From: Bryoerythrophyllum caledonicum
Taxonomy: Eukaryota > Streptophyta > Bryopsida > Pottiales > Pottiaceae
Direction: 5' to 3'
DNA: 64,000 nt
Assembly (NCBI GenBank): GCA_963971425.1
Contig: OZ020514.1
Coordinates: forward strand, 20,867,406 to 20,931,405
Positions 1-64,000 of this stretch are shown here, piece after piece. How positions within the stretch are numbered: the first letter of the stretch is position 1; the number at the start of each line of letters is the position of its first letter. The notes beneath the pieces are model-generated. The model made no database searches, was not told the origin of the DNA, and was given only the letters and a program-made list of their open reading frames with translations. Both the position numbers and the translations under genes were made by a program.

Positions 1-93
1 ACGACGCTGACCCAAATCGGAGTTCGACCTGCAGTAATCCTGGATGCTGAATCTGGACTCCAATAGTCCTTGAAGCCAGGGAATCAGCATACT

Positions 94-660
94 CTAAAGA
101 TACGTCTGTCCACCAGGTAGTGTGTGTTCCGGGGGAGAATATGTGAATATTGAAGGATGCACTCCATTAAAAGGATCATTTAGGATATTACGGAGGGGGT
201 AATGATCAATCAGAAGTGTGTTCCATTCATTCGCGTCTGGCCCAATAAGATAGCGTCTATCTTGAAAAAGACAAGCAAGCCGCTTCAGCAGCATGTCGTA
301 CTTCATTGTTTTGGGATTCGTCTAGGGAGATATATCACAAAACCCGTTGGTCATCTCTCGGACGTCCTTATGTAGGTCAGGGTACACCTCATGCAAATAA
401 CCCATGTGTATGATCATGGGTTGATATTTCTCGGTGGACTAGAATGCCAATCCGAAGTTGGACTGGCAGAACGTCAGGAACCCAAGAAGACCCGGCCTAG
501 GTTTTTGATGAAAATAGGGCTTCGTATCTCTTCCCCGGTAACCATATCGTTCAGCCATTAGAAGCCCTCTAACTTCTAGGACGAGGTTGTATCTTGAAGG
601 ACCCACCTGAATGTTCCTCAGAACAACTTCGGAGCTCACGTTGGCAGCCGGGTATGGGGT
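94..660 (-). other. FCP1-like HAD module 1 of gene A, decayed
   Basis: The minus strand reads YNLVLEVRGLLM, KPRPGLLGFLTFC, then NFGLAF-TAG-S, and ends with RLACLFQDRRYL and LLIDHYPLRNILNDPF. The TAG at 441-439 occupies the Trp of the xWS motif that every sister module keeps. A second in-frame TAG lies near 328. The end matches module C1 of gene C (LKNILNDPF). The signature Asp is replaced (EVRG). The unit-1 palindrome 671-687 lies immediately upstream. Confidence 0.65.
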
Positions 661-1329
661 AGATGTAGCTGTCGGCGGCCCGCCGACTACTCCGACCGCC
701 CCAAGCAAGCTCCGTCAGAGGCGAAGGCTTGGCTGTCATCTCCTCGATGATACCGTGGTCCGCAACGGATTCGATCGAAACACGGTGGACACATTCGGGC
801 CCCACCTCCTCTAGCAGTGATGGTGCAAAGTCTCGATCGTCAGCTTCCATACAGAAGTAGTGGGAAGGACGAATGTCGGGGAGGGAAGCCGTTGACTACG
901 AGCCGTCGATCGAGTGACGACTCGGTCTCTCCGGTGAGTTGTCATCGAGTATTATGATAATCGGGTTTTTTGAAATCGGAACAAGCTCCTCAATTTCCTT
1001 GACAGGACAGTCCACCTGAACGAAAAAGTCGATTCAAATGCATACAAGAAGTGATGAGCCATGTGCAAGGGAGACTGTGATTATTGTGAGGAATTTTATT
1101 TCAAAGAAAAATTGTGTTATAGACATGAATGTCAAAGCCTGGAAACATTAGGCGATTTTGGCGTCGGCTGCCCGTCAACGCTGAATTACTATGCAACGGT
1201 ACGAGGGGGACGCCTATAGCTCGGGTAGGCCAGAACAAAGTCCTCCCATTGTGGATCACCGGGGGAGAGTCAAGGGCATCTAGAGCCAGGATTCCTCCGA
1301 ATATATTCGGGTACAGGCAAGCCTCACTC

Positions 1330-1850
1330 TAACAAAGCGGAAAGGTACTTAACGATCCCGGGAAGAACGGCGTTCTTCTCTGACTCCATTGACTCTGGGG
1401 TGAATGTCATCGGATGCATTACATTCAAAGGACTATTCCTGACATTCATGTAAGGACAGTCGTCATCTGACTATTCGCGCCAGATCCTAACATTGCCTTT
1501 CGCTTCAAAAACAATGTAGAGAGTCTCATGAGGAATACGTTCCGAGTTCCTACCAATTTCTTAGCTACATCACAATAGGAATTATTGTATACGTGTTTGA
1601 CTAATTTAAGAACCGGGCAGTGACCTCTGAGGGCTACCAATTGGGCAGCGAGCTTAGGCTGACTTTTGCTAATCCAAAGCACAACTGTGAAGTTATCCAC
1701 GCGGAAGTTGATAAACTTAGCCGACGTCGGCCTGAATTTCGTATGCCACTTTCTGTACTTGCTTATATTCTATGCGATCAACATACCGTTTACACCTAGG
1801 ACAAGGAAGTAGTGATTGACCTTCACAGTTGGCAGCTCAAGATCCTTCTG
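1330..1850 (-). other. FCP1-like HAD module 2 of gene A, decayed
   Basis: The minus strand reads HYFLVLGVNGMLIA, then a TAG, then RPTSAKFINFRVDNF, VVLWISKS, VYNNSYCDVAKKL and VFLMRLSTLFLKRK. After a frameshift near 1450 it reads MNVRNSPLNVMHP. The same landmarks occur in module 3 in the same order, so this is a tandem duplicate. The first Asp of the phosphatase signature is Gly (GVNG). The degenerate palindrome at 1162-1180 lies between it and module 1. Confidence 0.65.
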
Positions 1851-2194
1851 AATGGATTCTCCCCCCGCTTGAGACCGAGCGACAATTAGGGGCACTTGGA
1901 GGCAAAAGTCGATGACATAGATATAATAAGTATCAAACATCAGCACCAGACACTATGATTGTTATGACGACATAAATTTGGAGTATGAACCTCAGAAAGT
2001 TGGAGACAGTCTTTAATTATGTAGATTTATACAGACGAGAATTACAACACGGGATTTGCAAGCGTCGGCTGCCCGCCGACGGCAAGTTCTAAGTAGTACT
2101 TGGACGTGGACGCCTATTGCTTGGGTACGACCATATGTACTGTTCCCATTCAGGGTCACCTGGTTGGAGACGACGGATCCAAGGGACGACGACC

Positions 2195-2854
2195 CTAGCA
2201 CTGGAGGTTTTCTATTTTTCTACCAGGCGAAGGGCTGCCATTCTTGGACTTTCGAAAGGCACAACCGATTCCTTCACCAAGGAAAGGCAATCGGCAACCA
2301 CGGTATGCGAAGGGTACAGGCATGCCCGACTCTTTCATGGCTTCAAGGAACTTTGAGACCTTGAAGGGAATAGAGGACTCATTTGTAGAAATCTCAATAG
2401 AATCCATGGTGAAGGGAACCGGATGGATGGCATTATATGGACTGTTCTTGACGTTTGAAAAAGGCGATACGTCAATCATCAGGGTGTTGCCGCTATTCGC
2501 TGTTCCTTTTAGCGCCGAGGGACTCAAGAAAAGAGTAGACAACCTCTTTAAGTAGAGTTTCTGCCCCCCAATACCAAACCTCGCCACGTCGCAATACGAC
2601 TGATCAAAAATATAACGAAGCCTTCTAATGTTGGGACATGCATCTCTAAGGGTTTTCATTTCATGGGCATGCCTATCTGGATTCTTCAAACTCCAGATCA
2701 CAATACTGCAGTTCGTAACGCAGTAGTTAAGAAACTCAACCATGCGTGGCCGGATCTTGCTATACAACGACCCGTCCTTGTCATTATCCAGGGCGAGTAA
2801 CAGACCGTCTACTTGGAGGACAAGGAAATAGTTATTGAGTGGTTGTCTGCCCAC
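2195..2854 (-). other. FCP1-like HAD module 3 of gene A
   Basis: An uninterrupted 219-codon stretch. It has the strand-1 motif FLVLQVDGLLL, RPRMVEFLNYC, VIWSL, YFDQSYCDVA-type spacing (seen as IFDQSYCDVA), LYLKRLSTLF and LMIDVSPFSNVKNSPYNAIHP. This is the FCP1/NLI-interacting-factor pattern. The nucleophile position of the DxDx(T/V) signature is Gln here (QVDG), so catalysis is doubtful. The module is bounded by unit-1 palindromes at 2989-3005 and 2063-2081. It is the best preserved of the three modules of gene A. Confidence 0.75.
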
Positions 2855-4183
2855 CTGAATGAAGTGCTCAAGTGCCTCCGTTTCCCAATCCGCTCCATCT
2901 TTGTCAATTGCTGGAGTTGAAACGGCAACAGTAGGAATACTCTGATAAACTGCTGATTGATAGAAATATGGAAGCTATTAGATATATAGTCGACGGGCAG
3001 CCGACAGAGAAGTGGAACATAAAAATACATTCTACTAACAGACTGCAAACTCAGAAGAACAACCATGGAAAATGAGCTTTGTGTTCACGTGATAAAGTAC
3101 ATGTATTAGAAAGGTAGTGTCCTAAACTGCAAGAAAACCTCCTAGCTGCACTATCTCGTGACTAACCTCTAGATGTATTGCTTGTATCCTGTCTTACAGA
3201 AGGAGCAGTAGGCGAAAGCTCTGTGTTGGGATGATCAGCAGAGTCAGGGGACATTGAAAGTTCTCTTGGGGTGGAACCAGCACTACCCGCTCTCTTTGAC
3301 TTCCGCACTCCGTTTTTCGGAGGCGGAGGTGGCCGCTTCCTTGACCGCCCTTCCTTGCTGATCTTCAAAGTGGTCTTTGGTGACGGCACTCCCGAGGAAA
3401 TGCCACCTTCTTCCGACGGTGCCTTGCTCTTCAGCGAATGGCTCTGTTGTCTTTTTTGTATGGCTCGGTGGGGGCGGAACTCAGGGGAGTCTGTCCTCCA
3501 CTGATTCCGGGAGCCGCAAAATGAGTAGCAAGTTTGGAGGAATAATCCTCACATTCGGTTTCATCTTCTTGCCCACCACTTCTGGCACCGGTGCATGATG
3601 CTGAACATCGCCGAATTTCGGAGTAGCGGACGCGCTTGGCTGTGATGAACTCGAAGGATTCTCACGCGATACAGGCCCATTAGATACAGCCGGGCTTGGT
3701 GCAGGCGGCGTCGGCGGGCCGCCGACGACTCGGCTGATTGGGGTCACTACTCGGGGAGGGACGAAGGGACCTTGTGAGCGCACGACGGTTTCATCCGTAG
3801 GCTGTGCGAACAGGGGGACGATACTCGCGCTGCGGCTCCACCTCTAGTCGCACCACAGCTGGTGCCTTTTCTTCCTTCTGAGGCCTTATCAGGTGTGCTT
3901 CATCTAGACGAATATCTAAGTCGGTTGTTGTGAGCAGTCCATCGTTGTCATGGAAAAAGGCTGTTGTTGATCGCATCCTCGCCCATCTCGGTCCCATGGT
4001 CTGAATCCTGGTTGGTTTCAGTCAATGTGACCACCTCATTGGGTCCTACAACGGGCTCGACTGTAAGCGTTAGCGCAAGCGGCTGAGCTCTGCCCGGTAG
4101 GAAGGACATTGCCTGCACTCGCTCCATCGCGACAGCAACCTCCGCCTCCTCGCAAACAAACTTGATCATTGTCGCCTTGTGTC

Positions 4184-4304
4184 GCTGTTGGGCAATTAGT
4201 ATCGGTCAATAATCAAAATGAAAACAGTCTCATCGGCGGGCCGCCGACGAATACGAGAAGGTGATGGAAAGACGAAATGATTGGATGAAAGAGAGGTGAC
4301 TTAC
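4184..4304 (-). other. Gene A intron before the Pro-rich linker, with palindrome
   Basis: Donor GTAAGT begins at 4304 and acceptor CCAACAG ends at 4184 (121 bp). It holds the unit-1 palindrome 4232-4248. Gene C also has a palindrome-bearing intron just before its Ser/Pro-rich linker (54327-54105). Confidence 0.55.
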
Positions 4305-5595
4305 CAAGGCTAATGCAGTCAGGTTGCCTCCACCCTAAGTGTTAAAGACGGTCAGACTTGAGTCGCCCTTCACCAGTGTGGGTTGCAAAATTGATGAGAG
4401 CAACCCTAAGCTTGGATGGCATTCATCTCAAGGCCAACTCTCAGCCGAGGGCGAGGCAGCGTTGTCGTAGAGTGGACTGAGAGGCTTCGTCAGTCCAGTT
4501 ACCTTCTGAAACTGGTGCAGGTGGTCCTGTGGAGCTCTAGGGTGGTTGAAGAGGATGCCGACATGCACGATGGGTCTCTCGTCCATGGCGGAAGGAGGGA
4601 ATCTACCGCTGGAGTCTGGAAGGTAGCGGATGGTGTGGACTGCGCAATCTAGCTTCTTCGAACGACATTCAGTCTCAATCACAAAATTGGACTCGTCGTC
4701 AGTGATGAAGACTGAAGGGGCGTAGAGTTCCCTGTCATCCCCATCACCCCGAAGGACCCTCTCTGCAACAGCCTTGAGCCCGTCCTTCTTGCAGTAGATC
4801 AAATCCCCGCCCTTATCGAAGCCGAACACGATGAACATCTCGCACGCCGCCTTCTCGAGATTGAAGAGTCCATGTTCATCGATCAAGCTCACGACGTCCT
4901 CAAGCTTCTGCGCAACCCGAACTTTGTGACGGGCACTATACTCATCAACAACATCGTTGCAGTTGAGGGCATACTTCCGTAACGCCGCATGGAACTCCCC
5001 AAGAGCTCGGGTGGTACTTGGTGTAATTCCGTTGTACCTCCCTTTGAGGTAGGCCTTCCTCGGATCCTAAGCTCCAGCTCGCGTATGATGTTCATGATGG
5101 TTTCGTCGCTGATGCTCTTCTCGTCCGCCAGCTCCATGTATTCTTCAACCGGCCAAGGTGAGTAGGTGTTATCGCAAGCCTTCTTCAATGGACACTTCTG
5201 TTACATCAGCATGAGTTCATTCTTGATGATGTATTCCATCTTCTTATCCTGACACCAGGATTTGAGCGACACTCCTTCTGCATCCTTGTCGCACCCCCCG
5301 TTACCTTCAAGTATACCTTCTTCTCAAGGATTTCATGAGCAAGCTTCATGGATTCCTCGTCCCGGAGGGCGAGAATGTGTTGAAGGTCGTGGAGGGTGAG
5401 GTCCCGCTGAGGAATTTTCAGGATGTTTTGAGGCTTCTTCCTATCCTCACCAATCAGGGTGCCCCGATCCCATGAGTCGAAGACTTCCTACCACTTGTTG
5501 TAAAGATTGTGTGGTGCAAAGACAAGCGGCAACTCCAACGTGTCCGTCTTGGAGTCCTTCCCCAACAGTGTTTCAAGGTATTCTTTGCAGAACTC

Positions 5596-5744
5596 CTGTA
5601 AAATGATGAAGATGACATATACATGAGCTCAGTCACAATGTTGTCGGCTGCCCGCCGACGAAACATAATCAATGATTTAATCCACCATGCTCATGAGATT
5701 GTCAAAAATGGAGAGCGAAATTGATGAGTGAAGTGACACATTAC
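5596..5744 (-). other. Gene A intron after the DGQHR exon, with palindrome
   Basis: The donor (5744, GTAATG) follows codons reading NYKKWK in phase 0, and the acceptor TTTTACAG ends at 5596. The 149-bp intron contains one unit-1 palindrome (5643-5659). Genes B (50676-50818) and C (56007-56130) have an intron at the same place and phase, each with its own palindrome type. Confidence 0.7.
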
Positions 5745-7989
5745 CTTCCATTTCTTGTAGTTGGTCCTCCTGTCGAGCCGACCATGGTCGATCCACTTAT
5801 CCCTCATCTTCCGGAGCTGCGACACGAAGGTCTCCTCCGCTTTCTTGTCCTTGATTTCGATGTTCAAGAGGTTGGAGATCTTCACAAGGTTTTCCAGATC
5901 CCCCGACCACAATGGGATAATATCGTGATCGAGGAAGTAATTCACCCTGTCCGAATCCACAGGCTCCAACTTGCCGAGTGCTTTGCATGCCAGGTACGTG
6001 TGTTGGCCACCAATGATGTACCAGTGGCATGTTGAAGAATTCCACCACTTGTAGTGTACTCCGTCAAGCACAACTTTGACGTCCATGGATGCGTGAATCC
6101 TTGGCAGCACAAGCTCAATGCCGTGCAGCGCCCTCCCATTCTCTTTTGTTCTCGGAGGACCCCGCAGAGGAACAGAGTACAGAGGCCGCTTTGCCCGCCA
6201 TGGTCCCAATCCTCTATAGAATAGCACGAGTTGTTTTGTGCGCATCGCGATGATGGGTCTGTACTTCATCGAGTCGGGAGCAACATGAATTTTTGCGGAG
6301 GAAGTCTTCGCTGGGAGCGTATTCTGCCCGAATGGATAACAGGCGCTAAGACCATCCTCTAACGCCTTGTACATGATGTCCAGCTCCTGACCACTCGTCT
6401 TGACTGAGAGGTGGTTGGCAAATAAAAGCGCATCAGCGACGGACTTCACCTTTGGCTCCTTCTTTGACGCCCTCTTCTTGACCACCTGCATACTCGACTC
6501 TCCGGTGTTGGAAGTTCCAGCAACTTCAGTCCGAGCGTCGCTAGCTGCTTTCCTGGAGTTCTTGGGCTTCCTCACGGTCTTCGACTTTGAGGCCGTCATT
6601 ATCCCCGCCCTGATTATCCCGGCCCTGGAGTTCTCCGCGTCCCTGAGGTCACTATAAGAAACCCGTGTTTTTTGTAACACGGTGAAAAACATGCCTGAAT
6701 GTCAAAAGTAACATGTTGTTGCGTCAATGTTGATGTCACCTAAAATCCATCAAGATGAACAGGCCAAAAATGTCAAAATATTTGCCCTAACATGGTTGTT
6801 AACGTCTTGACATCCAACTAGACGTGGCCTGAAATGTGTGGGAAAGGGCTCCACGTGGAGGGGGGCCCATGTCCACATCAGCTATGTTTTCCTTTGGGCG
6901 GCGTCACGCGGGATTTTTTTCATCCAACTCCATTTTGAGCGGGCAGTGACGTGGAATTTAAGACTTGCTAACTTGGGCCCCAAGAATTATGACGTGGACA
7001 ACCCACGTCAGCTGACGTCATGCTTTTAGAGCATTTTTCGTCCCCACAAGGCTATTAGTTTTGACATTTGTTTTGACATGCTCGTATTGCTCATGACATC
7101 AATCCTGATGTTGGCGCATTCTGCCTCTATGTTGTCATTGACCTTTTTCATGCTGGAGATCATGTTCACTTCAACATCTAGCGTGTTCTTCTGGACGTTT
7201 TTCTAAACATGTTTCTAAAAAACTGCTATTCTACGCGATGTGCTCTATAACGTAGGATGAACGTGTGACAATGTTAGTGAAGACGTCAAGCATTTGTCAG
7301 CCGTGACATGAGGATGAACATGCCATCAACGTGGCTTTCTCATTTCAAGTAACATAGACGGTGGTCAAGCATGGAACACCGTTGCTACATTTGTTGCCTG
7401 CAGCAACACAAAGCATCCTATATTCTCAAACAATCTTACTTGCCTAGTGATAGCCAAATTTTGTACTATTTCTTCAACCAAATTTTAGTGCTATTTTTTC
7501 AGCCAAACTAACTTATTTCAAGTCCAACTTCCAAGACAAGAAACCATGAGATAAGATGCGAGGAGCAATACGTACCAAGGCACCTTGAACAAGCTCATAG
7601 GCCTGCAGAGACATCCACCTGACAGAATCCTCAGTCAAAGACACATCGGTGTCGTTCAGATACTCTAATAATTAGTAACTTGTAAGGCAAAGATACCTAG
7701 AATTTTACCCTCTTTGATATTTCAAATAAGTAATATCAGCCCTAAATCATTTTAAATATCTAATCAGCTCTCCTAAGATCCACAGGTCAACATGACCTCT
7801 CTCAAAGGGGCTAAGTTCTTACTTGAGTTTAGAAACCATCAAGCTCGTCCATTCCAGTTGAAAGACCACCAACCTCTTCTTTTGATCTAATAGCTATCAA
7901 GCCTGTACAAATAGTAGCATTGTAAACTTGGTATAATCACACACATACTTGCTCATACATCAATGTGTGTGTCACAAGGAGAGCATCAC

Positions 7990-8950
7990 AATTCTTCAAC
8001 TCACTAGTGCCTTGTTTGACTTATCCGCCGATGGAGCTCTGGTGGCAAGCGGCCTCTCCTCCGTCAACGTCGGCGGCACTGACATGCTTCCCCTCCTGAG
8101 AAGCCCTCCCGTCTCGGGTGACGACCATGCACAGCCAAGGAACTCACTCTACCAAATGCTTGACCCAATCAGCACCAACCATCGACAACCATCTCCCACA
8201 CCCAAACATTGCGATTCCATCTCTCCCTCAATTGACCAAGTGGGCAATGTGAAGTCTCACCTCATGGCGGGCGCGCAATAGGAAGGCGTCGCTGAAGCGC
8301 GCGGAGAAAGACGCGACGTGCGACGAGGTGCGCGCGTTCATAAGCATCATCGCCTTGGCCATGGCGGCGCAAGCGTGATGGGTGAAATGCAAACAGGCAG
8401 TCAGGCAAGAGGATGTGACGAGGGGACGAGAAACCTCATCAGCTACCTTACCTCAGAGGAAATACGGGATGCGAATTCAAAGGCGGTGCCTTGGGGCTGC
8501 GACGAAGGTGGTGGTTGGCGATGGTGCCTGGATTGAGGACTCCACTGCGCCCCGCTGCTAGTGTCTGACCACTCACTGCCGGCTCGTCCCAAGGCCCCAG
8601 AGCCGGATTCAATGGGAACAACCACCACAACGACAATAATTTCGGCGGTACGGAATGAAAGTGCAATGTTGTGCACAGGGTAGGCGGCGCCGATCAATTC
8701 CGACACGGGCTTGACGAATGATGGGCGCGGCGTTGCACATTGGCTAGGCAGCTGGCTGGTTCTGGTGGCGTGGGTTTATCATCTTCCTCGCGTAGGGTGC
8801 GTGGCTGTGTGTGGCCTGGGTCGCCATTCATTCCTCCGCGCTCGGCCCTCCGCTCCCCCTCGATTTTATCACCCCCTCCGGATGCGCGATCAGTGACCAT
8901 TTCACTTTCTCAACGTCCTCCAACGTCGTCACTACTAACCAACGTTTTAT
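7990..8950. other. GC-rich island inside the AT-rich insert
   Basis: A sharp rise in GC within an otherwise AT-rich 6-kb stretch. Several short overlapping open frames exist on both strands, and none matches a family I recognise. One plus-strand frame (8265-8376) gives a natural-looking peptide containing SLKRAEKDATCDEVRAF. This could be a captured fragment of a host gene, but no splice-consistent model can be built from it. Confidence 0.3.
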
Positions 8951-9450
8951 GAAAAAATTTATTCATTTTTGGACACGTCAAGTTTGTTCTACTTGACCTA
9001 AGTTTGTTCTACTTGACACCCAAGTTTATTCTACCAGAAAATGTAGATGCAAAAAAACACCTCAGATGCCCAATTCAGACGAATTATGGGTAAGAATGGC
9101 CATTCAAAATTTATGGTTGAGTTGAAGAAGAAAATCAGTGGGAAAATTAAAGAGAGAATGCAAGAGTAAGTTCGGAGTGAAAATAGAGTTGGGAATGAGA
9201 AGAAGTCAACAAGGAAAATAATTGCATGACGGTTGGGAGGGAATGTGAAGAAGTCAAGGGAATGTGATTAATTGGAGGTATCGTAAAGACATTGGCGGCT
9301 AACACAAATTTTTGTGCTATTTTTAAAGTCCAAAATTTATGGTCTTAGTAGGACCTCTTCATTTTGTGCATTGCTTGACATAGATATAAACTTTGGAAAT
9401 TTCTCTTTTGAGCTAAAATGTAAAATTTTACAAAACATCAAAGAACTTAA

Positions 9451-10395
9451 CCCCTACAGGACCAAGTGTCCAAAAAGGGCTTTTTGAAATTTTGGTCAGG
9501 TTTCTTTGGTGTCAATTTCCAACATTATTCTTTGAAATCTTTACTATAGAAAGACATTATCAAGACCTTAGTGGGAAAACAATTTTTTCCTAAATTGGAC
9601 ATTTGATGAAAAAGTTATAGGGTTTTGAATTTTAAATGGGGAGGGTGGGCACCTCGGGCAGCTCCTAAAACTTTTGATAGGACACTCTATTGAAAGTGAG
9701 ATTTTCAGTACTCGCAAGTAATATTATTTCCCTACATATTGTCAAAAAAAAGTTCTTGTCTTTAGTGAAAAATAGCATACCAACCCAAGTCAAACATTTT
9801 CACACATTGTCACTCATTGTCGAGCAAGGTACCAAAAAAACTTCTTCTTTTCCACATAAAACCTAGAGATCTTCATATTTTTCACTTTTTATTTTTTCCA
9901 CAACAACATGTAATGTAAACCTTCTTATTAACCATTCGGAATATCAATCAAAAACATATTAAGTTCAAAAAAAATTAAAGTGTGAATTAACAAATTTTGA
10001 GCCTCCACTCCTTGCACACTTGTTTTGAATATGCTACACCCCGTCTCTACCTCTAAAAATTGGTGTGTAAGGAGCTAACATCATGCTTAACAAGATGGTA
10101 ATAGATTTAGACCTTGTGTAGTGAAATTTTTTGACACCAACTGAAGTCAAAGTCTGCTGATCCACTAAACGCAGGGAAGAAAATGAACCATTTGCTTGAC
10201 TTCAAACACTATAATCTTTCAATCCGTGCGGTCAAAGTTTATTAAATTTTGTACATGTATTACATAATAATCCTTTATTGAGATCCTACGATCAGAACTA
10301 AAAATCAAAGTTTTTGTTACCTTCTTTATTCATTGCACTAGAATCCATCAATTTTGAAGTGTTTTTGGTGTAAAACTGTCACGGTACCTTAGGGG
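9451..10395. mobile_element. piggyBac-like non-autonomous element (MITE)
   Basis: TTAA at 9447-9450 is followed by CCCCTACAGGACC, and GGTACCTTAGGGG ends at 10395 before TTAA at 10396-10399. TTAA flanks plus imperfect CCCCTA-type inverted ends fit the piggyBac superfamily. The 945-bp interior is AT-rich with no long frame. The part from about 10060 to 10400 is related to 43950-44640. Confidence 0.5.
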
Positions 10396-10399
10396 TTAA

Positions 10400-12800
10400 G
10401 TCATATTATTGTATAAAATATTTTATACTCAATAGAGAGATATACGTAATTGCCTAATATTCAAAATAATTGTTTTATGCAATATGATTTTTTTCAAAAT
10501 ATTTGACGTAAATATGAAATTTTTGCCTAAAAGGCTTGTAAAGTTCCTCATCTTTCAAAAATATTTCAAAAAATTATACTTCAAATTGATCTTATACAAG
10601 CCTATACAAATTGTCGAAAGTCTTTCTTATTCCACAACATTTTTATTGATGGTTTTGTTGATTCTAAACTAGCTATGGTGCCATTTGGGCTTCTATATTA
10701 AGTGTGTGTAGTGAGCAAAAATCATGGCTACCATATTATTGTGTAACTAATGCCAAATTTGTAGATAACATATGGCATGTTTGACAATACTTATTTGTAT
10801 TATTTATTCAAAGGAATAGATTTCATTTCATTATTGATAGTCTTTTAACCATGTATCATCGTTTGGATTGTCAAAGATTTGTCATACGTTTGGATTGTCA
10901 AAGATTTGCTTAATTAATGGAAATTAGTTGCTATTAAATGATTTAAATGTAGCATAAATTAACTATGGAATTAAATACTAAAAAGTGTCAAAAGCACTTG
11001 ATGGCATGGCCACATTACACATTCCCTATAGTCTTTGTCATGTCTTTAATCCTTTATGTAGAACATCATCTATTACTCTCATAGATTCTGCATCATCCGT
11101 AGCCATCTCGGCGTTAATGGATTAAAGGTTTGTTTGGCCTATCTTGTTACCACATCATGGACTTAGATGTATATAGTAGTTGCAACAACATTACAATATC
11201 AATCATCATTGATTACATATGTATTGTGATCTTAGTTGCTTGCCGAGGCTTCAACGTAGTTAATTAGGTCTTTAAAATGTCTATATTATGCACTTGAACT
11301 ATTGTGTATGAAAAGCTTTCTTTATACAACAAAATTGAATTCACATAGATGTGATTATATTATGCATATCTATACTTGTGCTTCTGCAAAAAAACCAATT
11401 GTAATTCATCGTAATATGAAAAATGCATGTACATAAAGTCTATTTCTTCTATCTTATAGATTTTACTTTTATGATTACTTATTATATCTATAATTTAAAA
11501 AAATTGTATCTTTTCTTTAATGCATAAGGCTCTTTGATATATAGAAGAAAAAGTTTGTTTTATACAAATTTAAAAGCAATTTCTTGATTCTACTTAAACT
11601 ATATTGAAGATGAATTCAATTTGAGAAGAATTGTGCATCATGTCACATATTAATTCATTAAAACATTAAATGATAAAGATTGAGGACAACAAGAATAAGA
11701 TTATAATAGATGATTTCACACTTGGTACGATTTTGGTTTTTTGGTTTTTGAATTTTCAATTAAAATGAATAATTTCATTTCTTTGAGAGCTAAAACTTAT
11801 TATATAATTGTACTTATATAGGGCCGACATGCCAACCATGCCTTGCATTATAGACTATAAATTAAAAAGGTCAAAAGAATAAAATCCATGTAGAATCAAT
11901 GAGAATATCTTGAGGATGGAATGAAATGATGGTCTTATTTGTATTTGATTTTTGAATTTTCAAGTCTCCATACATGGGAAGTGTAGTTCAACGTTTCCCA
12001 ATTATTTCTTCGCTCGGTTTCAATTTTAAAACACCCACTAAGCACTCACACTTTTGATTTTTTGTACAGTGTCTCAAATGTTTGAAAGAATTGAAGTGCT
12101 TTTCAACTATTTCTTATGCTACTTATTTAATCTTTTCATTTTTGCCAAAACCAAACACCACTTAGTCATTCTTCATTTCTTTTCTTTCCCTCTTGCAATT
12201 TTCAAAGAAGCTAGCCTAAGACCAATTCATCCATTTCATTCTCGTTATTTTTTGAGGGCACCATGCTGTCATTCACATTTGTCATGAAATTCTTAAAACA
12301 ATCCATCAACTTTAAACCTTTTTTTTTTATTCACTCTTTTCAATTTTCTTCAACCAACCAGAAGGCCACTTTCACCTTCCCTTTTTTTTAATATGGCTTC
12401 TAATTTTTAGAACAACCTTACGGTGTGCTCGTCCAGCCATGATTTTTGTTAACCACTCTTACGAGTTTGAAACACCCAAAGCCACCCACACGTTTTTGTT
12501 TTTTTTTGTTTTTCCACTTTTGCAAGTTTTAAACAATCGCTAAAACCTTTGCTAGTAAAAAAGTTGATGTAAACAATGAATTAATGGAATTGCTTATTAA
12601 CAAGCATGTTGAATGATATAATTCAAATTATTGAGGAAATAATCCCATATATATGTAATCAACTTCAAAATATTATGTATACAAAATATATGTAACATGT
12701 GCATTTAAGTTGAGCCATTAACATATTTTTAGTTTCATGTGTTCCTCAAAGTCCATTAAATAATTTATTCACTATAAAGAAAGCCAAAGTTTCCACACAA
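10400..12800. other. AT-rich DNA without recognisable genes
   Basis: Low-GC sequence with homopolymer runs and only short chance frames. I see no domain, tRNA or repeat boundary here. Confidence 0.6.
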
Positions 12801-13635
12801 ACAAGTTTGGCCTATCTATGTAGACGAGCTGCCCGTTTTCTCAGTTTTTGGCTTTTGGGCACCGGACTGCAGTCATTCTATAGTGATAATAAACCCAGTG
12901 GCAGACGTAGACATCCCGCGTTTTCTATAACGTTGCATTCTGACGTGGCCATGATCTTTTTGACGTCATCCAAAACGAGTCTGTCAACAATGACATCAAC
13001 GCGTTTTGTCTTTAACATGGACGCGTTTTATGGAACGTCAAACTAAATTTGAGGTACTGCAGGATTTTCTTACTAATGCCTAATGTCACAGAAGACGCGA
13101 GACGTAACAGCCTTGACGACACCAAAAACATGGTGGACTTGTTAGAGGCTAATTTAGAATCCATATATCTGATTATGCACAAATCTGTTATCATTGATCC
13201 AGCATGGGTCCTTTTTTATCTCACTCCTTCATCTGAATATGCTTGGTTATTCACTGTCTCGTATTGGGCAGTTTTATTATTTTAGATGGCTCATTTGAAA
13301 TAAAGGACTACTAACTTAGTTCCCACCAAATATTTTTTTCTTGTTCCAAAGTCCGTCGGCGGATGATAATATCCGCTCGGTGGATGTCTGTCACATCCTT
13401 CACATGGTAGACTCTATTTGTAACATTCAGCCGTCGGCGGGCAGCCGACGGCATAGTTTACAAGACAGATTTCCCAGCGACTCTGAAGCTAATTTAGGGA
13501 TTTGTGTGGTTGTTGATCAGGTTCATCGTCTTTGAGACTTCAGAGCCACCCTCGTTGGCGGGTGGCCGACGAAATCATTGTTGCTGCCATTACCTCATCC
13601 ATTGTCTTCAGTGATTTCATATCACTAACGTTAGC

Positions 13636-45945: not shown

Positions 45946-45948
<3 letters not shown>

Positions 45949-46007
45949 CTTTTCCAACACAGTTTTCCTCTCTTCTCTCCCTCTCTCTTTGCTGGGCTTC
46001 CCCTGCT

Positions 46008-50874: not shown

Positions 50875-50875
50875 T

Positions 50876-51330: not shown

Positions 51331-51639
51331 GCAGCCGGATATCTCCGGGTGAATATGAAAGTGGAAACCAGAAGAAGAACCGAGTCCTGAAAACAGAAAT
51401 TAATGGACATACTGTACATCACAAATGTGTGGTTGGGAAACATGTGGTAGGGAAAAATGGGACAGAGATGCGGACAGAAATTACTCGCAATTGATAGAAC
51501 ACGCAACCGGATATCTCCGGATGAAATCAGAGTAAGAGTCCAGTACTAAACTGTTTCATTATAAGAAAGTGTCATACAATATATCAAGGGTAGCCGTTGA
51601 TAAGAGGCGCGTGTAATCTACGGAGAATCGAATCAACTA

Positions 51640-52115
51640 TTCTAATTTTAGTGCTTTACAGATGCCCTCTACCCGTCCTGTATGGTATCTCCCATATGTT
51701 AGATAATGAACTATAGCTTTTCTAGGATTCTTGAATGGATCTAGATCTGCAACAACAACAAATTTAGGCCACAAATAATGCCTTGTTCTAGGATTAAATG
51801 AGGCCTTCTTAAAGATGTGGAGAAACCTAACATAGCTGGGCCTTCGAGTCTGTTTGCTGGCATAGCAAAAAAGAATATTTGATAAGATGTCTAGGGGCAA
51901 TAACACTTGGGCCGCCTCCATGAACCTATCTGGACGCATAGGAGACCAGATCCCGACATTGAAATACCGCAGTAGTATTCGAATAACATCTGCCGTGTCA
52001 TCAAAGGAAGGCGGCTGCGCGGATCGGGACTCGGCTGAGTCAAGGACCTCGTCCGAGCAGAGAGGACCACGGAGAGATATGATTATGACCTGCGAGATAG
52101 ATGGCACGACCATAG
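51640..52115 (-). other. FCP1-like HAD module C2 of gene C
   Basis: Reads VIIISLRGPLC, VIRILLRYFNVGIWSPMRPD, LFCYASKQ and VVVADLDPFKNPRKAIVHY. It follows module C1, with palindrome 52181-52194 between them. The signature Asp is missing (SLRG), so it is probably non-catalytic. Confidence 0.65.
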
Positions 52116-52441
52116 AATTAGAAATTGAACATTGAAAAGAAGAGAAAATATGGTAGGAGGAACTCAAGTCACATCCTAGATCGGAGATCTCCGGGTGCCC
52201 CTCCCAGACCAACGTTCTGCAGTGGAAATGGTCAGGAGAATACTCAATAGAGTTCACAGATATTAAGAGTGAAGTTTGGGGGCGAGACACCAACAATAAC
52301 AAATAAAATGAAGGACCTCAACAAATAACGTTACTAACAAGAACATTTGTCTTCAAAATTGAAAGGTCAAAATCCGACAGACATTCATGACGAAACATTT
52401 ACAAAGCATAGAGTTAATACTATCCAGTATATTTCATTGTT

Positions 52442-53045
52442 CTAAGGCGCCGAAATTATGCCCTTCACCACGGAGCGAGCCTGAGTAGAATTTTTGTCTA
52501 CTAAATCACTGGCAAACTTCAATTGATTCCGTCTAACAAAGTCGGGAACATCCTCATTTGACGCTAGCAGTCCCGAGAGCCATGGGAGAAACATGGTGGT
52601 CAACCAGGCTTCACCCAAATTCCCAGTCCATGATGGCGGATGAACTGCGCTGAAGGGATCGTTAAGGATGTTCTTTAGTGGAGTATCGTCCATAAGCAAG
52701 ACATCCTTAGGAGATGTGGGCGACGCTTTGCTATTATAATTGTCAGGTCCTTTAGGAAAATTGGCTTCTTTGGATGAGATGGAAGCATATATGATGTTTT
52801 TGTGCAATCGGCCTGTGTCAGGATTCTGGCGCCTTCCGGAATGGTAGCACCTTTCTTGTGCAACTCCTTGATGATATCCACAATATTCTTTTCCAATACA
52901 CTGCTCCAGAATGAGACAGTAGCCTTCTCTCCCACGAAGTTCAGGATTTCAGTGGAACCAGGCCTTACTTTGATGTCTCTCGGTTGTCCCTGTTTAAATT
53001 CCCCCCTGTGCACAAGAACTCCATTTAAGTCAAACACGACATGAT
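52442..53045 (-). other. FCP1-like HAD module C1 of gene C
   Basis: Reads YHVVFDLNGVLVHRG, KVRPGSTEILNFVG, VSFWSSVLEKN, KPIFLKDL, and after one frame change VLLMDDTPLKNILNDPF. The nucleophile Asp is kept (DLNG), the second Asp is Asn. This is the only module in the window with the first Asp and the DD of the last motif, so it is the most likely to have had phosphatase-like chemistry. Confidence 0.75.
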
Positions 53046-54104
53046 AAATCCGTTGTTGTGTTACCTGATCCTCGATTGGAGGCTCTCGGACGATCGTCGT
53101 AAACTTCTTCAGACCTGAACCCAAAATACGAGTACGTCGGCTGAGATGAGGAACTTGTACAGCTTAGAGAAATTGCAAAGATACATATAAAAGTGTTCCG
53201 CACTCAGAACCTAGAAATGCTGGATGAAAGAATGAACACTATATAGATGATGGCACGTAAGTATGAATGTCCATATTAGGCACCTGGGACAGTAGGTGTA
53301 GTATCCCTAGAAGTCTGAGCTACACCAGCGACTTCAGCAGTCTGTGCGAGGTTTCTGCCACCGACATCCTTCGACTGTGTTGATCCGGCCGACACCTGAA
53401 TACCAGTAATGTAGTGGTAAGAACACGGTCTGCAGAGAGTGCACTGTCTTGAGAACAATCAAGAAGGTTTGATGGACAAGTAACTGTTCACCTTATCTTT
53501 CTGGGCCCTTGTCCGAACTGTAGGCGGAGGAGGAGGAACTTTAGGCACAGGATTCTTCGCGATTGCCTTCTTCTTCTCTTTTTGAGCTAGCTGCCCGTGG
53601 CTCCGTGGAGGGCTGCGCGGAGGGCTCATAACCTGTAATTCACGCAATGTTTGTTGCGCCGATGCCTCATCGATCGTGTGATCAGTGTCACGCAAAGTCC
53701 TCGGCAGTCTTGGACACAACCTCTACTTCAGGACGCGTCGTGAAAGGGTTGTCCAGCGGGAGATCTCCGGGTGCTCTGTGGGTGTGGTCGAACTCCAGGC
53801 GATCGGACATTGCCGTGTCATCGTCCAGATCTGGCGGAGGAGAACGTTGCCTATCGGAATGCGAACTGGTTTCCATTTGAGAGGGACGCCGTCTACCGTC
53901 CAGAGTAGAGTCGCTTGTTGAACTAGGCGAGGCACGCCTGACAGCAAGATGTGGTTCATCATCGTTTACCTGCAATGGGTCGATTGGGGTGCCCGCACCG
54001 ATGATCCGAGCGGCTGTAGCCAAGGACTCGAGTCTAAAATTGGGAACCGCTGATGAACTTGGTTCATTCCGCACATCAACATCAAGCATCGTGGCATCAG
54101 TCGT

Positions 54105-54327
54105 CTGCGTCACATTGACGAAGTCAGTGTGGAATACATTAAGACGCAATACGAAATAAAACGGTATCATACACCCGGAGATCTCCGGTTCAAAGTTGTC
54201 CGAGTCTACCGGGGGAACTAAAAATAAACATGGCAATGATAAAGACGAGTCCTAAAGAATGGAGGGCATCCGAATGGAATAAACATCCGGAGATCTCCGG
54301 GTCAGGTAGTATCCGTAGGCGTTATAC
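54105..54327 (-). other. Gene C intron 4 with two palindromes
   Basis: Donor GTATAA at 54327, acceptor GACGCAG ending at 54105. Palindromes 54287-54300 and 54175-54188 lie inside. The acceptor was chosen because exon 5 (54104-53970) then gives an open 45-codon exon before donor GTAAAC. Confidence 0.5.
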
Positions 54328-56006
54328 CTCGCCGGTATAATTCATCCTCGACATAGCCCGTGTTTGAACCCCAGCGCCTTGGGTCGACTTAGTGATGTCA
54401 GTCTCCACTAACTCCTCAGGATTGGGGTCGGTAACGTCAGCTAAGATATTCAAGTGGAATTTGAATATTTGTTCTGCGTAGGATTCGGCATTTACTTTGG
54501 CATCTTCGCTGTTCACAACCTCGAGGACCCGCGCGTCGTGAGTCTGCAAACCAAAAAAAAATTAGGACGGCGATATCCAATTCATATAACTGTATGCGGA
54601 CCGGAAATCTTAGACATTGGATTGCTTGGGAAGGATGTCTTGCTTACCAAGCCGAGGTATGTAATATGTGGTCCTCCATGAACATTGACGACCACCATAC
54701 CCTCTCTGATGTATCCCGTGAACAGCGAATCGAGGACCGAGATCCTCAGCTGTGGGACACCGGTTTGCTTCCAACGCTGGATGGTTTCTTTATGTTGAGC
54801 GGTTGAAAAGAAGGCCGACATTTTTTCGGGGTGGCCTTTGAAGAGCCTCTTGAATGACTGAGCAGGCGTCTCGCTTGAATCGTATTCATACAGGAATACG
54901 CAGTATACTGTCTCCTCGACCCCAATTACTAGAACCGGAAATCCATCACCAGGGTGGGGGAAGTAGTAGACGACATGCGTTGCCCACAATTTTACCTTGC
55001 CTCTGGACTCTCTCTGCTGAAGACTGATGTACCTCTTTAATTCAACAAATCCTGCGACGTCAGTGATAAGAACCGACGGTGATCTGACCCTCGTCCGCCC
55101 GTCCTTCGTGTCCACTTCGAGATGGTCGAAAATCGTTCTGAAGTCAAACACATCTAGCACCTGTGCACGGCATATGTCGTCTTTAACGCGGTAAAGGAAA
55201 AAGAAGTAAAAGTGAGGGTCAGTGACGTTACGCCACTGCTGAATGTCCGGCATGATAAGTACTTCGGCGATCTCGCCTCCTCTGTCAGGCATAACCCTGC
55301 AGGTGTATTTGGAGTCGAACAGGGACGTATCATCCGTGGGTGTGGCCTCGGCAGCATCTTCAATGATGTGTTGACTCCAAATGGACACGAGGAAGTCTGG
55401 AGTGGGGTCGGTATCCTTGTTTACCGCCTTCAGTCGACCCTCAAGCCAAGCTTTACCCTTGGCAGAGTGATTAGCGGTGTCGACCCAGGACTCGAGCTGG
55501 ACCCTTCCAATATTCCTCTCTTCGGCAAATGCGTCCCACTGCTCCTTCGTATATGGGACGAAGTCAGCAGACTTCGAGGGAAGGGGGTGCGACTTGTATT
55601 TAAGCATCAGTTCATTCTTCATTGCACGGACTCTCTTCTCTCTGTTCGCCGCGTTTTCGAGAGTCTCCGCGTGCCCTTTCATAGTACCTTGGTTTGCCGC
55701 TTTGGAGGACTTCACACAGACCTTCTTCTCGAGCACTAATTCAGCGAGGTAGTCTAGGTCTTCAGCGCGCATTTTATAAAGAGGCTTGAAGTCGTTCTGC
55801 ACCAGAGGTTTCCGCTTCAGCTTAGCTGGGTCCCCCGTCTTCCCGTTGGAGTCTGGTAAGACTCCAGCGACGAACAGCCTGTCGATTCGGATCCACTTCT
55901 GGACCTCCGCATCATCCATCTCAAATAGAGGTGGGACCTTCGCGTCTTTGGGGTCTGTTTTACCGAGGTGTGTAAAAACCGTTGGCACCACTTGCCGTTG
56001 GAACGT

Positions 56007-56130
56007 CTGCAATGAAAAAAATTACAGGGTGTAAGCAGCCGGAGATCTCCGGATGATTGGTTTGGTTGCTGTGAGGATAGAGCACATCCACGGAATGAAA
56101 AATATTTTCAGGTTGAGAATGTATATTTAC
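56007..56130 (-). other. Gene C intron 2 (after the DGQHR exon) with palindrome
   Basis: Donor GTAAAT at 56130 in phase 0 after QSDAFS, acceptor CATTGCAG ending at 56007. The 124-bp intron carries palindrome 56039-56052, close to the 3' splice site. Confidence 0.75.
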
Positions 56131-57457
56131 CGAGAATGCGTCAGATTGAGGACGACCATACAGTTGGGGGGCTGGTTTACCGAACTCAAACCACTTTACT
56201 CTGCACGTCTACAGCTGCTCAGTGAAACTCTGCTCCTTCCGCAAACCCGTCAGATCTTGGTTAAGAGCGCGCGAGAGCTCTAGCAGGGTCATGTCTCTGG
56301 GGTCCGGTTTTGTCCAAACCGGGATGATAGAGAAGTGGGAGATCTCTTCGAGCGTCCACGTTGCTGGCAATTCGTGTGACAGAACCTTGTGCGCCGCCAC
56401 AGTATGCTGACCTCCGATAATGTAAAAGTGTGTCGAGTCCCTCAAGCAGTCCTCCTTCGTCGGCTTGGTCGCGAAAAACTCTACCTTACTTCCTTCAGGA
56501 TTCTTCTTCAGTGGCAGGACTCGAATGTGAATCTCAGGTGCCGTGGCCTTCGAAGACGCGCGAACTGCGTTGATAATTCCTTCAAGCCGCTCTTTCTGGA
56601 TGCCCCTGTATACTAATCCTCCAGGGGGGGCCCGGTGCAGCTTATCAAAATGAACGAGCTTCACGACATCCTTCTTCGTGTCAGGGTCTTCTACTGTCAA
56701 AGGCTTATTATTGTGTATGTAAACGTTTTTGAACGCGTCGTCGAGTACCTTACCAATTGCTTCCACTTCAGTCCGCTTCATTTTGGTGAGGTCAGCCTGT
56801 GTGAAGTTCGGGCACCTTTCGATCGCGAGGCCAGGCTCATCGGCCTTCGCTTTCTTCCCCTTTTCCGCCCGCGATGAAGAACCTGGGGTCGAAGTCTTCA
56901 AGGTGGTCTTGCGTTTTCTTGCGAAGGTCGATGCTGGTGTCAGAGACAGATTGGGAGTTGCGTCTGGAACGGGCATTCGGGACTTCTCTTGTGCTTCAGC
57001 CATCCACTTCCACTGCTCATTCACGTACTCCGGATACCACGTATCACCCGTTGGAGGGGCAAATAAAAAGTTCTCACTCTGGCAGGTCTCCACCATCTCA
57101 TCCGAAATCTTAGATGATTCTAGGATCAAGCCGTATATATGTGGCTCGGTGGAGGAGTCCACGTTCTCCTGGACGATAACGAGACTGACCTCGTCATCAA
57201 GACCCTACAACTCGAGAACCTGGAGACCAATGTCGGGGTGACCCCGTTTGCCAATCCGAAGCTGAGGGACGAATTCCCAGGCATCGTCAGGGGTTTTAAT
57301 GAGCTTGACGCTCCACTGGGTTATGCTCTTTCGGCAATTGTATACGTAGCCGACATTGTGTATCCCTCTGAAGACAAACTCAGGGAGCCAATACTCTACA
57401 AATGCCCCAAGTTTCCCGGGTCGACATTCAGTCGGAAGTGTGGTTGTCCACGAATCC

Positions 57458-58449
57458 CTGCAAGATGATTTTGAAAGAACAAGCACGCAGTTTAGAATCG
57501 ATGCAATTGTCTGGTCAATAACAAGAATCCGAAACAAAATCACCTGACAAGTTCCTAGATGTTGAAACCATGAATCATGCTTCCAAATCTGTATCACAGT
57601 GCCAGCAGGGGACAATACCCGGAGATCTCCGGCTAATTTGGGGAAGTCGAGTGCATTCGACAAGGAACGAATCCTGGCTTCTCTGACGGGTCTATTTCTG
57701 ACCTGAACCGGAGATCTCCGGTTAATGACCCCTCAACGCGAATTTCCACTGTTTCGATACGTCCGGAGATCTCCGGCTGCTTTCGAGAATAACTAACGCC
57801 TGTATAGGGTTTACATATTCATCTGATCGCTACATCATCCGGAAATCTCCGGCTGATTACTGGAACTCCGTATTTTCAGCCGGAGATCTCCGGCAGAAGC
57901 ACGTACGGCACTTCGAAGCACTAATCGGATCATATCAGGACTCGAATATTTACATTCATTTACAGAGAGGTTTGACGTGTAACTCTTTAAGTTTGACATA
58001 CTTAAATAACAAGTTACATAATTGAGAACATAAATATATGTATCAAATGAGCTCACACAATTATGTTATAACTCAACCTTACACACTAGAAGAAGAATCC
58101 GCTAATGTTTCGATGGAACGCCAAATTTGACGACTCTACATATACACATTGAATCGAACCAGACTCGACAGACTCAGTGAGGAAAAACACATTCAAACAT
58201 TCCTGGAATTCCAAAATCATTCGCATATTCATGAATAGATATACAAATATGTTCACGGGACAACAAAAAACCAATCGACTATAGCCAAACAGACATCTGA
58301 ATTCTAGTACGCAATTTTTGAGGTTTTTCAAAATCATTCAAGTGTTCGTCCACTCCGAAATAATAGAACTAATTCAGAACTCACTCAAAAAAAGGAACCC
58401 CACCTGGTCGCCCGGACTGAGCATAAACAGTTCAACTGTGTATACTTAC
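57458..58449 (-). other. Gene C intron 1 with five unit-3 palindromes
   Basis: Donor GTAAGT at 58449, acceptor TCTTGCAG ending at 57458; the frame is kept across it. Palindromes at 57619, 57708, 57763, 57839 and 57880 all fall inside. The placement at the 5' end of the gene matches the clusters upstream of B and E. Confidence 0.7.
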
Positions 58450-61845: not shown

Positions 61846-61849
61846 CCTC

Positions 61850-62089
61850 CACGGTGAACCGTGAACCCTGAATCCTTAACTCTAAACCCTTAAACCGTGA
61901 ACTAGAAACCATGAACTCTAAACCCTACACCGTGAAAACCATGAACCCTAAAACCTAAACCCTAAAACCCTAAATCCTAAACCCTAAACCGGACACATTA
62001 AACCCTAAACCCTAAACCCTAAACCCTAAAACCCTAAACCCTAAAACCCTAAAACCCTAAAATCCTAAACCCTAAACCCTAAAACCCTG
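61850..62089. repeat. Interstitial plant-type telomere repeat tract
   Basis: Degenerate AACCGTGAACCCT units grade into AAACCCTAAACCCT/AAAACCCT repeats ending abruptly at 62089. Degenerate start and sharp end suggest an old internal tract, not a chromosome end. Confidence 0.9.
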
Positions 62090-63140
62090 ATGCACAGTCC
62101 AGCCTGAATACGGAAGCTGTACCCGAATTCAAAGGACCGGGTTGCTGTACTTCTAAAAGCATCTGCTCAGTTATTTGTGCACGTTTCTTCTCAAGCATCC
62201 ATATAACTTCTGTCGAACTAGGAAATATTGGAGATTATTCTAATTGGTAACGAACGCCGATGTTCTACTTGAGTCTTGTATTGCCTGATGAACAATACTA
62301 GTTGGCAGCAGAGGGCCGTCTCCTTTCCTTATGTAGGGTATAATTTAATTAACAAAGGTGAGTACGAGAAGTCCTGTACGATTACATTTTACTCTGATTT
62401 AGTCTAAGACGTGATACGGCCCTAGTATATTCAAAGATACATCATGGGGCATACTTCATCATCCGTTTTCAAATTTGCAGCACTCTAGGAACTAGATGAT
62501 ATCCTCACAATACGGTCATCCCATGAGTACGAGCCTTTCATTATCATGAGTGGAATGTGGCCTCGGTCGTGGGCACGTCGAAGAATGCGCACAATCATGA
62601 TGGTGTACAGCAGTTAGTTTGAAGGAGCATGCATGCCCAAGATTCGTTTCAAATTTGAGCGCATGAATTTTCCCTCCACGAGGTGATGGAAAGGTGGATA
62701 AGAGTATCCTTCAACTCAGCTCTCATCCTTTTTTGCTCTGGATGTTTGAGATACTATGGGAGCTGAGCGAGTCAGTGACAGTGTTCGCTTGCGCGACATC
62801 GTGCTAGATAACTGTAGGGAAACGAATCGACATTATTCCAGGAATGTTAAGTATGTTCCCTCGTATAATTCCGTATTCGCTGTCTGTCTGTGAGGATTGG
62901 TGAAGATTGTGTTGCATTCTGTCCTCTGAGTCGATCGGGAGCTCTCGTGTAGAGATTTTTAAACTAATTTGTCTCCGAAGATACAGTCATAGCCCTGAAG
63001 CAGTAAATTTATTCGACTCGAGTATATAGATGACGTAATTGCTTGGCATGTGAATCCGAACTGTTAACCGGGTTTTGCAACTGTATCACACCGCCATACC
63101 CGCGAATATTCCGTACGGCTGTTGATTCGATCAAGGCCAA
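62090..63140. other. Gene-free stretch upstream of gene F
   Basis: Mixed-composition sequence with no convincing frame. It may hold the promoter and leader of gene F. Confidence 0.4.
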
Positions 63141-63430
63141 AAAACTCAACCGGAGATCTCCGGCTGTTCATGCCGTGCTATTCTGGATTCTGCCAATCTC
63201 GCCCGGTAACCACGGTTTCACCCCTTGATTCCAGTGGCTGTCAGAATCATCGAAAGCAGGATTCCCGGAGATCTCCGGCTACTTCTGTTTTGTTCTCTCA
63301 CTTAATCAAACAAAAAGTTGTCGTTGTTGATCATTCTCCACTCTGCCGGAGATCTCCGGCTATCCCTGCCGACGATATTGAGGATGGTCATCCAAATCGA
63401 CTCTACATACACACAATTTCTCATTCAGGA
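63141..63430 (+). promoter_or_regulatory. Probable leader intron of gene F with three palindromes
   Basis: Palindromes at 63150, 63265 and 63346 precede an acceptor-like TTCTCATTCAG (ends 63430), 28 bases before ATG 63458. The layout mirrors the leader introns of B and E. No donor was fixed. Confidence 0.4.
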
Positions 63431-63457
63431 CATCAGCCACCAACCGAGAATCCACCG

Positions 63458-64000
63458 ATGCAGCACGGGACTATGTCTGACTCAGATTGGTGGGAGAGTG
63501 ACTCGGAAGACCTTGCCATGGTCGCAGCTCAGTGCTCAGATTCTGGACATGTGAATTTCACGGAAGAAGATGATCCATCCCAGGAGTCTATTGGAAGATC
63601 GGAGGTCCTGTGGTCAGGAATGTCCGTGAACCTTATGAGGCCAGGTTCAGGCGAAATTGGAGAAGCGTCCATTGTTGAGGTTCACCCCATGGGTCAATGG
63701 CTTGGAGTTGACATACCAGTCGGATCTAGTGAGTTCGTATTACTTAGACCAACGGCCATATGCCCCGCGGCGGAAGAATTACCACTCATTCCTTTGCAAC
63801 GCGGATACGATTCACTTATTCACACACTCCGGCGGACCGTTTTATGGAGAAGGGCGGATGTCATGATTCCAACCGGAGATCTCCGGTCCGACGAGTCCCC
63901 ATTCGTACCACGAGAGCGATGGGTTGGACTTGAAGTGCAGCGGTTGGACGGAGATGGGTTGGTGCTCTGCTCTGGGAGAATCATGGCCGCTTTCCCAGCA
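63458..64000 (+). CDS. Gene F: N-terminal part of the unit-3 transposase-like protein, open to the window end
   Basis: From ATG 63458 (MQHGTMSDSDWWESDSEDL) the frame stays open for 181 codons and leaves the window, so it is partial. An acidic N-terminus is followed by RSEVLWSGMSVNL, AEELPLIPLQRGYDSLIH and PRERWVGLEVQRLDGDGLVL. The last segment aligns in position and pattern with gene E (IPRASWFSKRVIL...VAIGLC) and gene D (SPKGTWEGF). It is divergent from gene C with a palindrome-bearing leader, as E is from B. A palindrome (63873) lies in frame, giving IPTGDLRSD. No stop or frameshift is seen. The identification rests on a short N-terminal match plus synteny; the diagnostic HDKMD part lies outside the window. 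Confidence 0.55.
   Translation, partial: MQHGTMSDSDWWESDSEDLAMVAAQCSDSGHVNFTEEDDPSQESIGRSEVLWSGMSVNLMRPGSGEIGEASIVEVHPMGQWLGVDIPVGSSEFVLLRPTAICPAAEELPLIPLQRGYDSLIHTLRRTVLWRRADVMIPTGDLRSDESPFVPRERWVGLEVQRLDGDGLVLCSGRIMAAFPA

Follow-up and report, generated by a model that had tools for sequence, protein, structure and literature searches.

The window analysed here is a stretch of 64,000 nucleotides of Bryoerythrophyllum caledonicum (contig OZ020514.1, positions 20,867,406 to 20,931,405, forward strand). It contains three units, A, B and C, which are DNA transposons with terminal inverted repeats (TIRs). Their layout is divergent, with a transposase on one strand and, on the opposite strand, a protein with a predicted ParB/sulfiredoxin (ParB/Srx) fold together with frames that resemble FCP1-type phosphatases. 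Around the genes lie palindromes of 16-19 bp, singly and in arrays: P1 in unit A, P2 in unit B and P3 in unit C. Each of these, and a fourth palindrome (P4) found elsewhere in the genome, goes together with one clade of the ParB-fold protein. The ParB-fold and FCP1-like reading frames were handled as separate genes, based on open frames and hidden Markov model (HMM) matches. The features are the following.

97..2974, minus strand: FCP1/NIF-like frames of unit A (HMM matches at 97-321, 1327-1769 and 2198-2974; Pfam NIF E 7.9e-10 for 2198-2974)
671..15503: P1 palindromes GTCGGCGGGCMGCCGAC, starting at 671, 1163, 2064, 2989, 3710, 4232, 5643, 13433, 13554, 14453 and 15487
4431..5066, minus strand: likely second exon of the unit A ParB-fold gene, judged from its open frame and a by-eye likeness to the unit C counterpart
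5694..6701, minus strand: ParB/Srx-fold ('DGQHR-like') protein of unit A, motif IIGGQHT, from alignment with the proteins of the other units
6647..13141: part of unit A that shows no homology when compared with an uninterrupted copy, free of palindromes P1-P4
15009..16163, plus strand: transposase pieces of unit A in a broken frame (HMM matches at 15009-15356 and 15417-16163; DUF7869 E 0.0016, below the cut-off)
36730..38264, minus strand: transposase pieces of unit B (36730-37161, 37038-37364 and 37368-38264; DUF7869 E 3.3e-5, 24 bits, below the cut-off)
38674..40682: P2 palindromes TATCCTCGANTCGAGGATA upstream of the unit B transposase, starting at 38674, 38946, 39075, 39140, 39283, 39366, 39443 and 40664
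46847..50715: P2 palindromes flanking the unit B ParB-fold gene, starting at 46847, 46941, 46991, 48829, 48880, 49042, 49105, 49168, 49231 and 50697
49263..50615, plus strand: ParB/Srx-fold exon of unit B, with in-frame stops in the window copy (HMM matches at 49263-49592, 49596-49829 and 49833-50615; motif LINGQHSVEA)
51333..57895: P3 palindromes AGCCGGAGATCTCCGGCT, starting at 51333, 51505, 53755, 54173, 54285, 56037, 57617, 57706, 57761, 57837 and 57878
52445..53163, minus strand: FCP1/NIF-like frames of unit C, DLNGVL replacing DxDxT (Pfam NIF E 6.3e-8 for 52678-53163; 52445-52677 by eye)
54585..56021, minus strand: likely second exon of the unit C ParB-fold gene, judged from open frames and a similar-looking frame after the ParB-fold exon in locus L034
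56212..57732, minus strand: ParB/Srx-fold exon 1 of unit C, motif IIGGQHTV (matches at 56212-57204 and 57208-57732)
63068..64000, plus strand: open frame of unit C running into the transposase, which is recognisable past the window end (about 64290-66449)
63148..63888: P3 palindromes preceding the unit C transposase, starting at 63148, 63263, 63344 and 63871

With up to 3 mismatches allowed, there are 11 P1 (671-15487), 18 P2 (38674-50697) and 15 P3 sites (51333-63871) in the window, in zones that are separate and do not overlap. The first-pass annotation of this DNA had named 45 short palindromes in three unrelated sequences; the three types are confirmed and the recount gives 44. Its observation that the palindromes do not mix between units and are absent from later inserts also holds, with no P1-P3 site (at up to 3 mismatches) at 6.65-13.4, 15.6-38.6 (a long terminal repeat element and a kinase/RING segment), 40.7-46.8 or 57.9-63.1 kb. 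The matches expected from shuffled sequence were 0.04 (P1), 0.01 (P2) and 0.04 (P3), which excludes a chance origin. The genes had been described as three divergent pairs with the same protein types. The layout stands, and the 'DGQHR-like' proteins of all three units can be aligned (A and B being 21-23% identical to C), but FCP1/NIF matches occur only in units A and C, no FCP1-like gene of unit B being found within the window, and the transposase domain DUF7869 remains below the Pfam cut-off of 26 bits in the window pieces of A (18.5) and B (24). Homology of the unit A ParB-fold region to other copies ends near 6646, and alignment with an uninterrupted copy suggests that 6647-13141 is a later insert, possibly accompanied by a deletion. 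The transposase region of another copy (L027) aligns to window positions 13142-16070 at 91% DNA identity.

That the transposase is of the DUF7869 type is clear from a P2 copy (E 2.2e-45) and from unit C (E 7.6e-45, in L039), with bit scores of 153 for unit C and 155 for copy L009. For A and B, the assignment is supported also by related copies, L009 and L006, the transposase of the latter being 54% identical to that of unit C. No Mutator family in Pfam matched the transposase, and its helix-turn-helix (HTH)-like stretches are weak matches. Over the 12.8 kb compared, two unit A copies are 97% identical. TIRs were read in the P1 family only, where copies end in inverted repeats AACGGATATTTAACTAAATGTGGA. 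One P1 copy is fully bounded (C1:41319476-41335059, 15,584 bp) and has a 4-bp flanking duplication, ACAT, read in this copy only; a search of L031 for the right-hand terminus of a P1 copy found none there. The palindromes are spread along the whole element and also occur close to the terminal repeats: measured between starts, P1 sites are 165-285 bp away from the left TIR in three copies and 56 bp away from the right TIR in one. The bounded P1 element is nested in a P2 element, and the palindrome type switches at its TIRs: inside there are, in all but 200 bases of the element, at least 23 P1 and no P2 sites, and the part of the flanks compared has 7 P2 and no P1 sites. This nested element (covered by L030, L025 and L032) sits within a P2 palindrome array, the nearest P2 site being 8 bp away, and in the window itself three palindrome-bearing units stand side by side. 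It may be that such elements insert preferentially into one another's promoter arrays.

The genome searched comprises 437 Mb in 894 contigs; AAACCCT-type repeats and plant-like Ty3 reading frames suggest its origin from a plant, perhaps a bryophyte. At up to 2 mismatches it contains 2371 P1, 4604 P2 and 3128 P3 sites, against 26/16, 3 and 5 for reversed-pattern controls. Of twenty 10-kb stretches selected for their palindromes, a few of them overlapping, 13 were chosen with P2 and 7 with P1, and none has a second type among P1-P3 at up to 2 mismatches. The clade-B protein is present in 9 of the 13 P2-picked stretches and the clade-A protein in 6 of the 7 P1-picked ones; the remainder contain only the transposase or FCP1-like part. 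When the three window units were counted together with 22 loci (17 picked by palindrome and 5 by protein, omitting the partial or overlapping L012, L014 and L020), these 25 stretches had 291 own-type sites and a single foreign one, a weak likeness to P4 in L016 with 3 mismatches. Most sites are outside coding matches, which cover 14% (P2), 28% (P1), 40% (P3) and 30% (P4) of the length and contain 6 of 148, 1 of 91, 0 of 28 and 0 of 24 sites, respectively. Neither a scatter of palindromes without a link to these genes nor a mixture of types within single units appeared.

Clades B, C and the fourth clade were also tested from the protein side, and clade A from the palindrome side only. With the protein of clade C as query, the genome yielded 892 candidates, of which 121 were scored (at least 84% identity); many of them retain a 590-amino-acid open frame for exon 1 at 96-98%. 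The clade-B protein gave 1731 candidates, with 146 scored at 67% identity or more. On contig C1, with its listed exact sites as the reference and the window copies excluded, 12 of 14 clade-B matches in the covered range are no more than 10 kb away from P2; the figures are 0 of 43 for P1 and 0 of 71 for P3. For clade C the figures are 7 of 38 (P3), 0 of 25 (P1) and 0 of 9 (P2); most P3 sites are missed here because the P3 ends are variable and only exact sites were used. In 10,000 circular shifts the means were 0.26-0.92. The largest value reached by any shift was 10 for clade B and P2; for clade C and P3 it was 7, as high as the count observed. A blind palindrome search in protein-picked stretches returned P3 from two clade-C loci (L036 and L037) and P2 from a clade-B locus (L038, 69%).

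Through P0004, a distant homologue, a fourth protein clade came to light on seven contigs; among the clades compared it is nearest to clade C (37% identity). The blind search in stretches of two of these contigs found TCGTGAGATCTCACGA and a one-base variant (P4), in 12 and 13 copies, and no P1-P3 sites were present in the two stretches. P4 and P3 have GAGATCTC in common. At 2 mismatches the control for P4 was high (346 against 93), and P4 was therefore counted by exact sites only: there are 41 in the genome, on 15 contigs, including all seven with the fourth-clade protein. All 15 are numbered 200 or higher (L034 and L035 among them; the lengths of two are 23 and 101 kb), and the long contigs have no exact P4 site. 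The 15 may come from a contaminant or from a portion of the genome that was not assembled. When P0002 was used as a further query, no fifth clade appeared among the 91 of 1406 candidates that were scored.

A scan of prokaryote genome contigs gave 1 relative among 20 stretches, L033 (CADCWO010000074.1), a contig of 4235 bp from a metagenome bin classed as cyanobacterial. The protein it encodes belongs to clade B and is 63-73% identical to pieces from the window genome; the contig has five P2 sites (0-1 mismatch) and no P1, P3 or P4, and in its first 1.99 kb only short pieces can be aligned. The contig is almost certainly not cyanobacterial, and this plant-type transposon sequence in a deposited cyanobacterial bin was probably misbinned. 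A scan of IMG/VR yielded 7 stretches and no relative. The genome-wide tests, the protein-picked stretches, the fourth clade and the contig from the other assembly all agree that each protein clade goes with one palindrome.

In diverged copies, the palindromes outlast the surrounding noncoding DNA. Counting as palindrome any site of up to 3 mismatches in either copy, a definition that misses sites lost in both and therefore somewhat inflates the excess, the identity of palindromes and of other noncoding DNA in P2-family alignments was 90.8 versus 71.8% (60-70% class), 91.5 versus 77.7% (70-80) and 94.0 versus 87.4% (80-90), with no excess above 90% (95.5 versus 95.2%). P1 copies showed a small excess at 80-90% (94.0 versus 89.7%), none at 90-97% (95.1 versus 95.7%) and the reverse above 97%, where palindromes were less conserved (93.7 versus 97.0%).

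A predicted model of the 'DGQHR-like' domain resembles the ParB/sulfiredoxin fold (ParB-CTPase fold). Foldseek with the first full-length model gave nothing informative, a PDB sequence search with the protein (as single sequence and as profile) gave no useful match, and Pfam and NCBIfam gave no family name. The window proteins have a GQH core in common with the DGQHR motif; no DGQHR family matched in Pfam or NCBIfam, where the presence of such a model was not checked. The arginine of the P motif GxxR is absent, aligned copies having GGQHT, NGQHS or similar, and no HTH in exon 1 or later pieces matched Pfam above the cut-off. The FCP1-like proteins match Pfam NIF without DxDx(T/V), the catalytic motif of active FCP1/SCP phosphatases, which is missing also from the unit A frame at 2198-2974. 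Their motif types are QVDGLLL, GVNGLLI and EVRGLLM in 17 P1-family frames (the copies in L021-L026 and the window) and FDLNGVL in unit C.

We hold with moderate confidence that the palindromes are lineage-specific cognate sites of a regulator that the element itself encodes, most likely its ParB-fold protein, whose putative binding would serve self-specific activation or anti-silencing. Loaded at many of the palindromes, the regulator would activate or de-silence the element along its whole length, in its own family only. A joint change of site and reader would give rise to a new family, which would be isolated from the regulation of its relatives. The choice of the ParB-fold protein over the transposase is suggested, though not proved, by units A and C: their transposases are 54% identical over 375 residues, yet P1 and P3 are unrelated, and the ParB-fold domains share 37% identity over only 90 residues. 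The association with clades cannot separate the candidate readers, because the genes of an element are linked and travel together.

CACTA/EnSpm elements are large TIR transposons with subterminal repeats that are bound by TNPA. The palindromes might likewise be internal transposase sites, used for assembly of the transposition complex or for repression, a reading that is consistent with the P1 sites near both TIRs and with the weak HTH-like stretches. The units resemble CACTA/EnSpm in being large TIR transposons with repeated putative sites for an element protein, but the P1-family TIR is AACGGATATTTAACTAAATGTGGA and not CACTA, and the sites, rather than being limited to the ends, are spread over the entire element. 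This spread, together with the likeness of the A and C transposases despite their unrelated palindromes, makes transposase sites unlikely. It is quite improbable that the reader is the FCP1-like protein, or two element proteins jointly, and that the ParB-fold protein has another task. P1 elements do have three consecutive FCP1-like frames, each preceded in L025 by a P1 site at a distance of 30-440 bp, and the missing catalytic motif allows for a role beyond the textbook reaction. However, no such gene was found for unit B in the window, and we know of no DNA reading by the FCP1-type phosphatase fold.

A ParB-like protein could also act in partition or as a clamp, loading at parS-like palindromes and sliding or bridging to hold copies together or tether them, rather than in anti-silencing. 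The predicted fold and the many palindromes per element fit this idea, but the elements are integrated in chromosomes, the P-motif arginine is missing and no HTH was recognised, so we regard it as improbable. Passive repeats that are copied along, or host-factor sites, are very improbable. Close copies do share sites by descent, and there is no excess conservation above 90% identity, but passive copying does not agree with the excess in diverged copies or with the presence of P2 in the other assembly. Sites of a single host factor were ruled out, since one factor would not result in four unrelated sequences, each tied to one clade.

For the self-specific regulator that we favour there is a close parallel. 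The first-pass annotation had proposed that the protein of each unit reads its own palindrome and that this design is without precedent; one palindrome per clade agrees with the former, but the latter cannot be maintained, as VANDAL/VANC of Arabidopsis already has such logic. According to parts of PMC5735166, these transposable element (TE)-encoded proteins have noncoding target motifs that differ between TE families; the VANC21 motif is YAGTATTAY, and VANC6 motifs are likewise short and in tandem repeats (parts of PMC5735166 and PMC10398659). Both systems have a TE-encoded protein family and short motifs that recur in the noncoding DNA of the element (upstream regions and introns in VANDAL, in the same sources), and in both the motif changes between families together with the protein clade. 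The palindromes, single and in arrays, are longer than the tandem-repeated VANC motifs, the transposase is of DUF7869 type rather than Mutator, and the regulator has a ParB/Srx-like fold in the model. Anti-silencing, demonstrated for VANC in these sources, is putative here.

ParB-parS and Noc-NBS share with the units the domain fold (in the predicted model), multi-copy palindromic sites of about 16 bp and related proteins with different site preference (parts of PMC7383237); the units differ in that no HTH was recognised, the GxxR arginine is absent and the setting is a eukaryotic transposon. VirB of Shigella, a ParB-superfamily member, counters transcriptional silencing from specific sites (parts of PMC10676424); it is a precedent for a ParB-fold anti-silencer by analogy only, being a bacterial plasmid regulator. 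A PNAS 2025 survey describes the ParB-CTPase fold as frequent on mobile elements, with sulfiredoxin as its commonest eukaryotic representative, and 'transpos' and 'plant' are absent from its main text (PMC12704722). Among the titles and abstract starts listed in searches of open PMC papers, none describes such an element. Tentatively, and with more doubt, we suggest a eukaryotic parS/ParB-like system built into DNA transposons, in which the ParB-fold protein would load at its own palindromes, spread and keep the element free of silent chromatin, with at least four mutually exclusive site-reader lineages in one assembly, convergent with VANC via an unrelated protein. If true, the VANC design would have arisen a second time, independently, and eukaryotic transposons would join the known settings of the ParB fold. 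With four natural non-mixing site-protein pairs, two of them with more than 100 scored gene copies (121 and 146), it could be tested how the regulator of a selfish element stays specific although site and protein both change, and orthogonal palindrome readers are potentially useful as tools.

The window has several further features. A Ty3-type element occupies 21.7-36.2 kb of the window, with direct repeats at 21683 and 35919 that are 96% alike over 300 bases. At 18.59-18.81 kb, 21-bp tandem repeats give Pro/Arg-rich frames. Tandem repeats that are rich in C and strongly skewed occupy 59.4-62.1 kb, the part at 61.8-62.1 kb being AAACCCT-like, and similar sequence is also found beyond a P2 transposase in L009.

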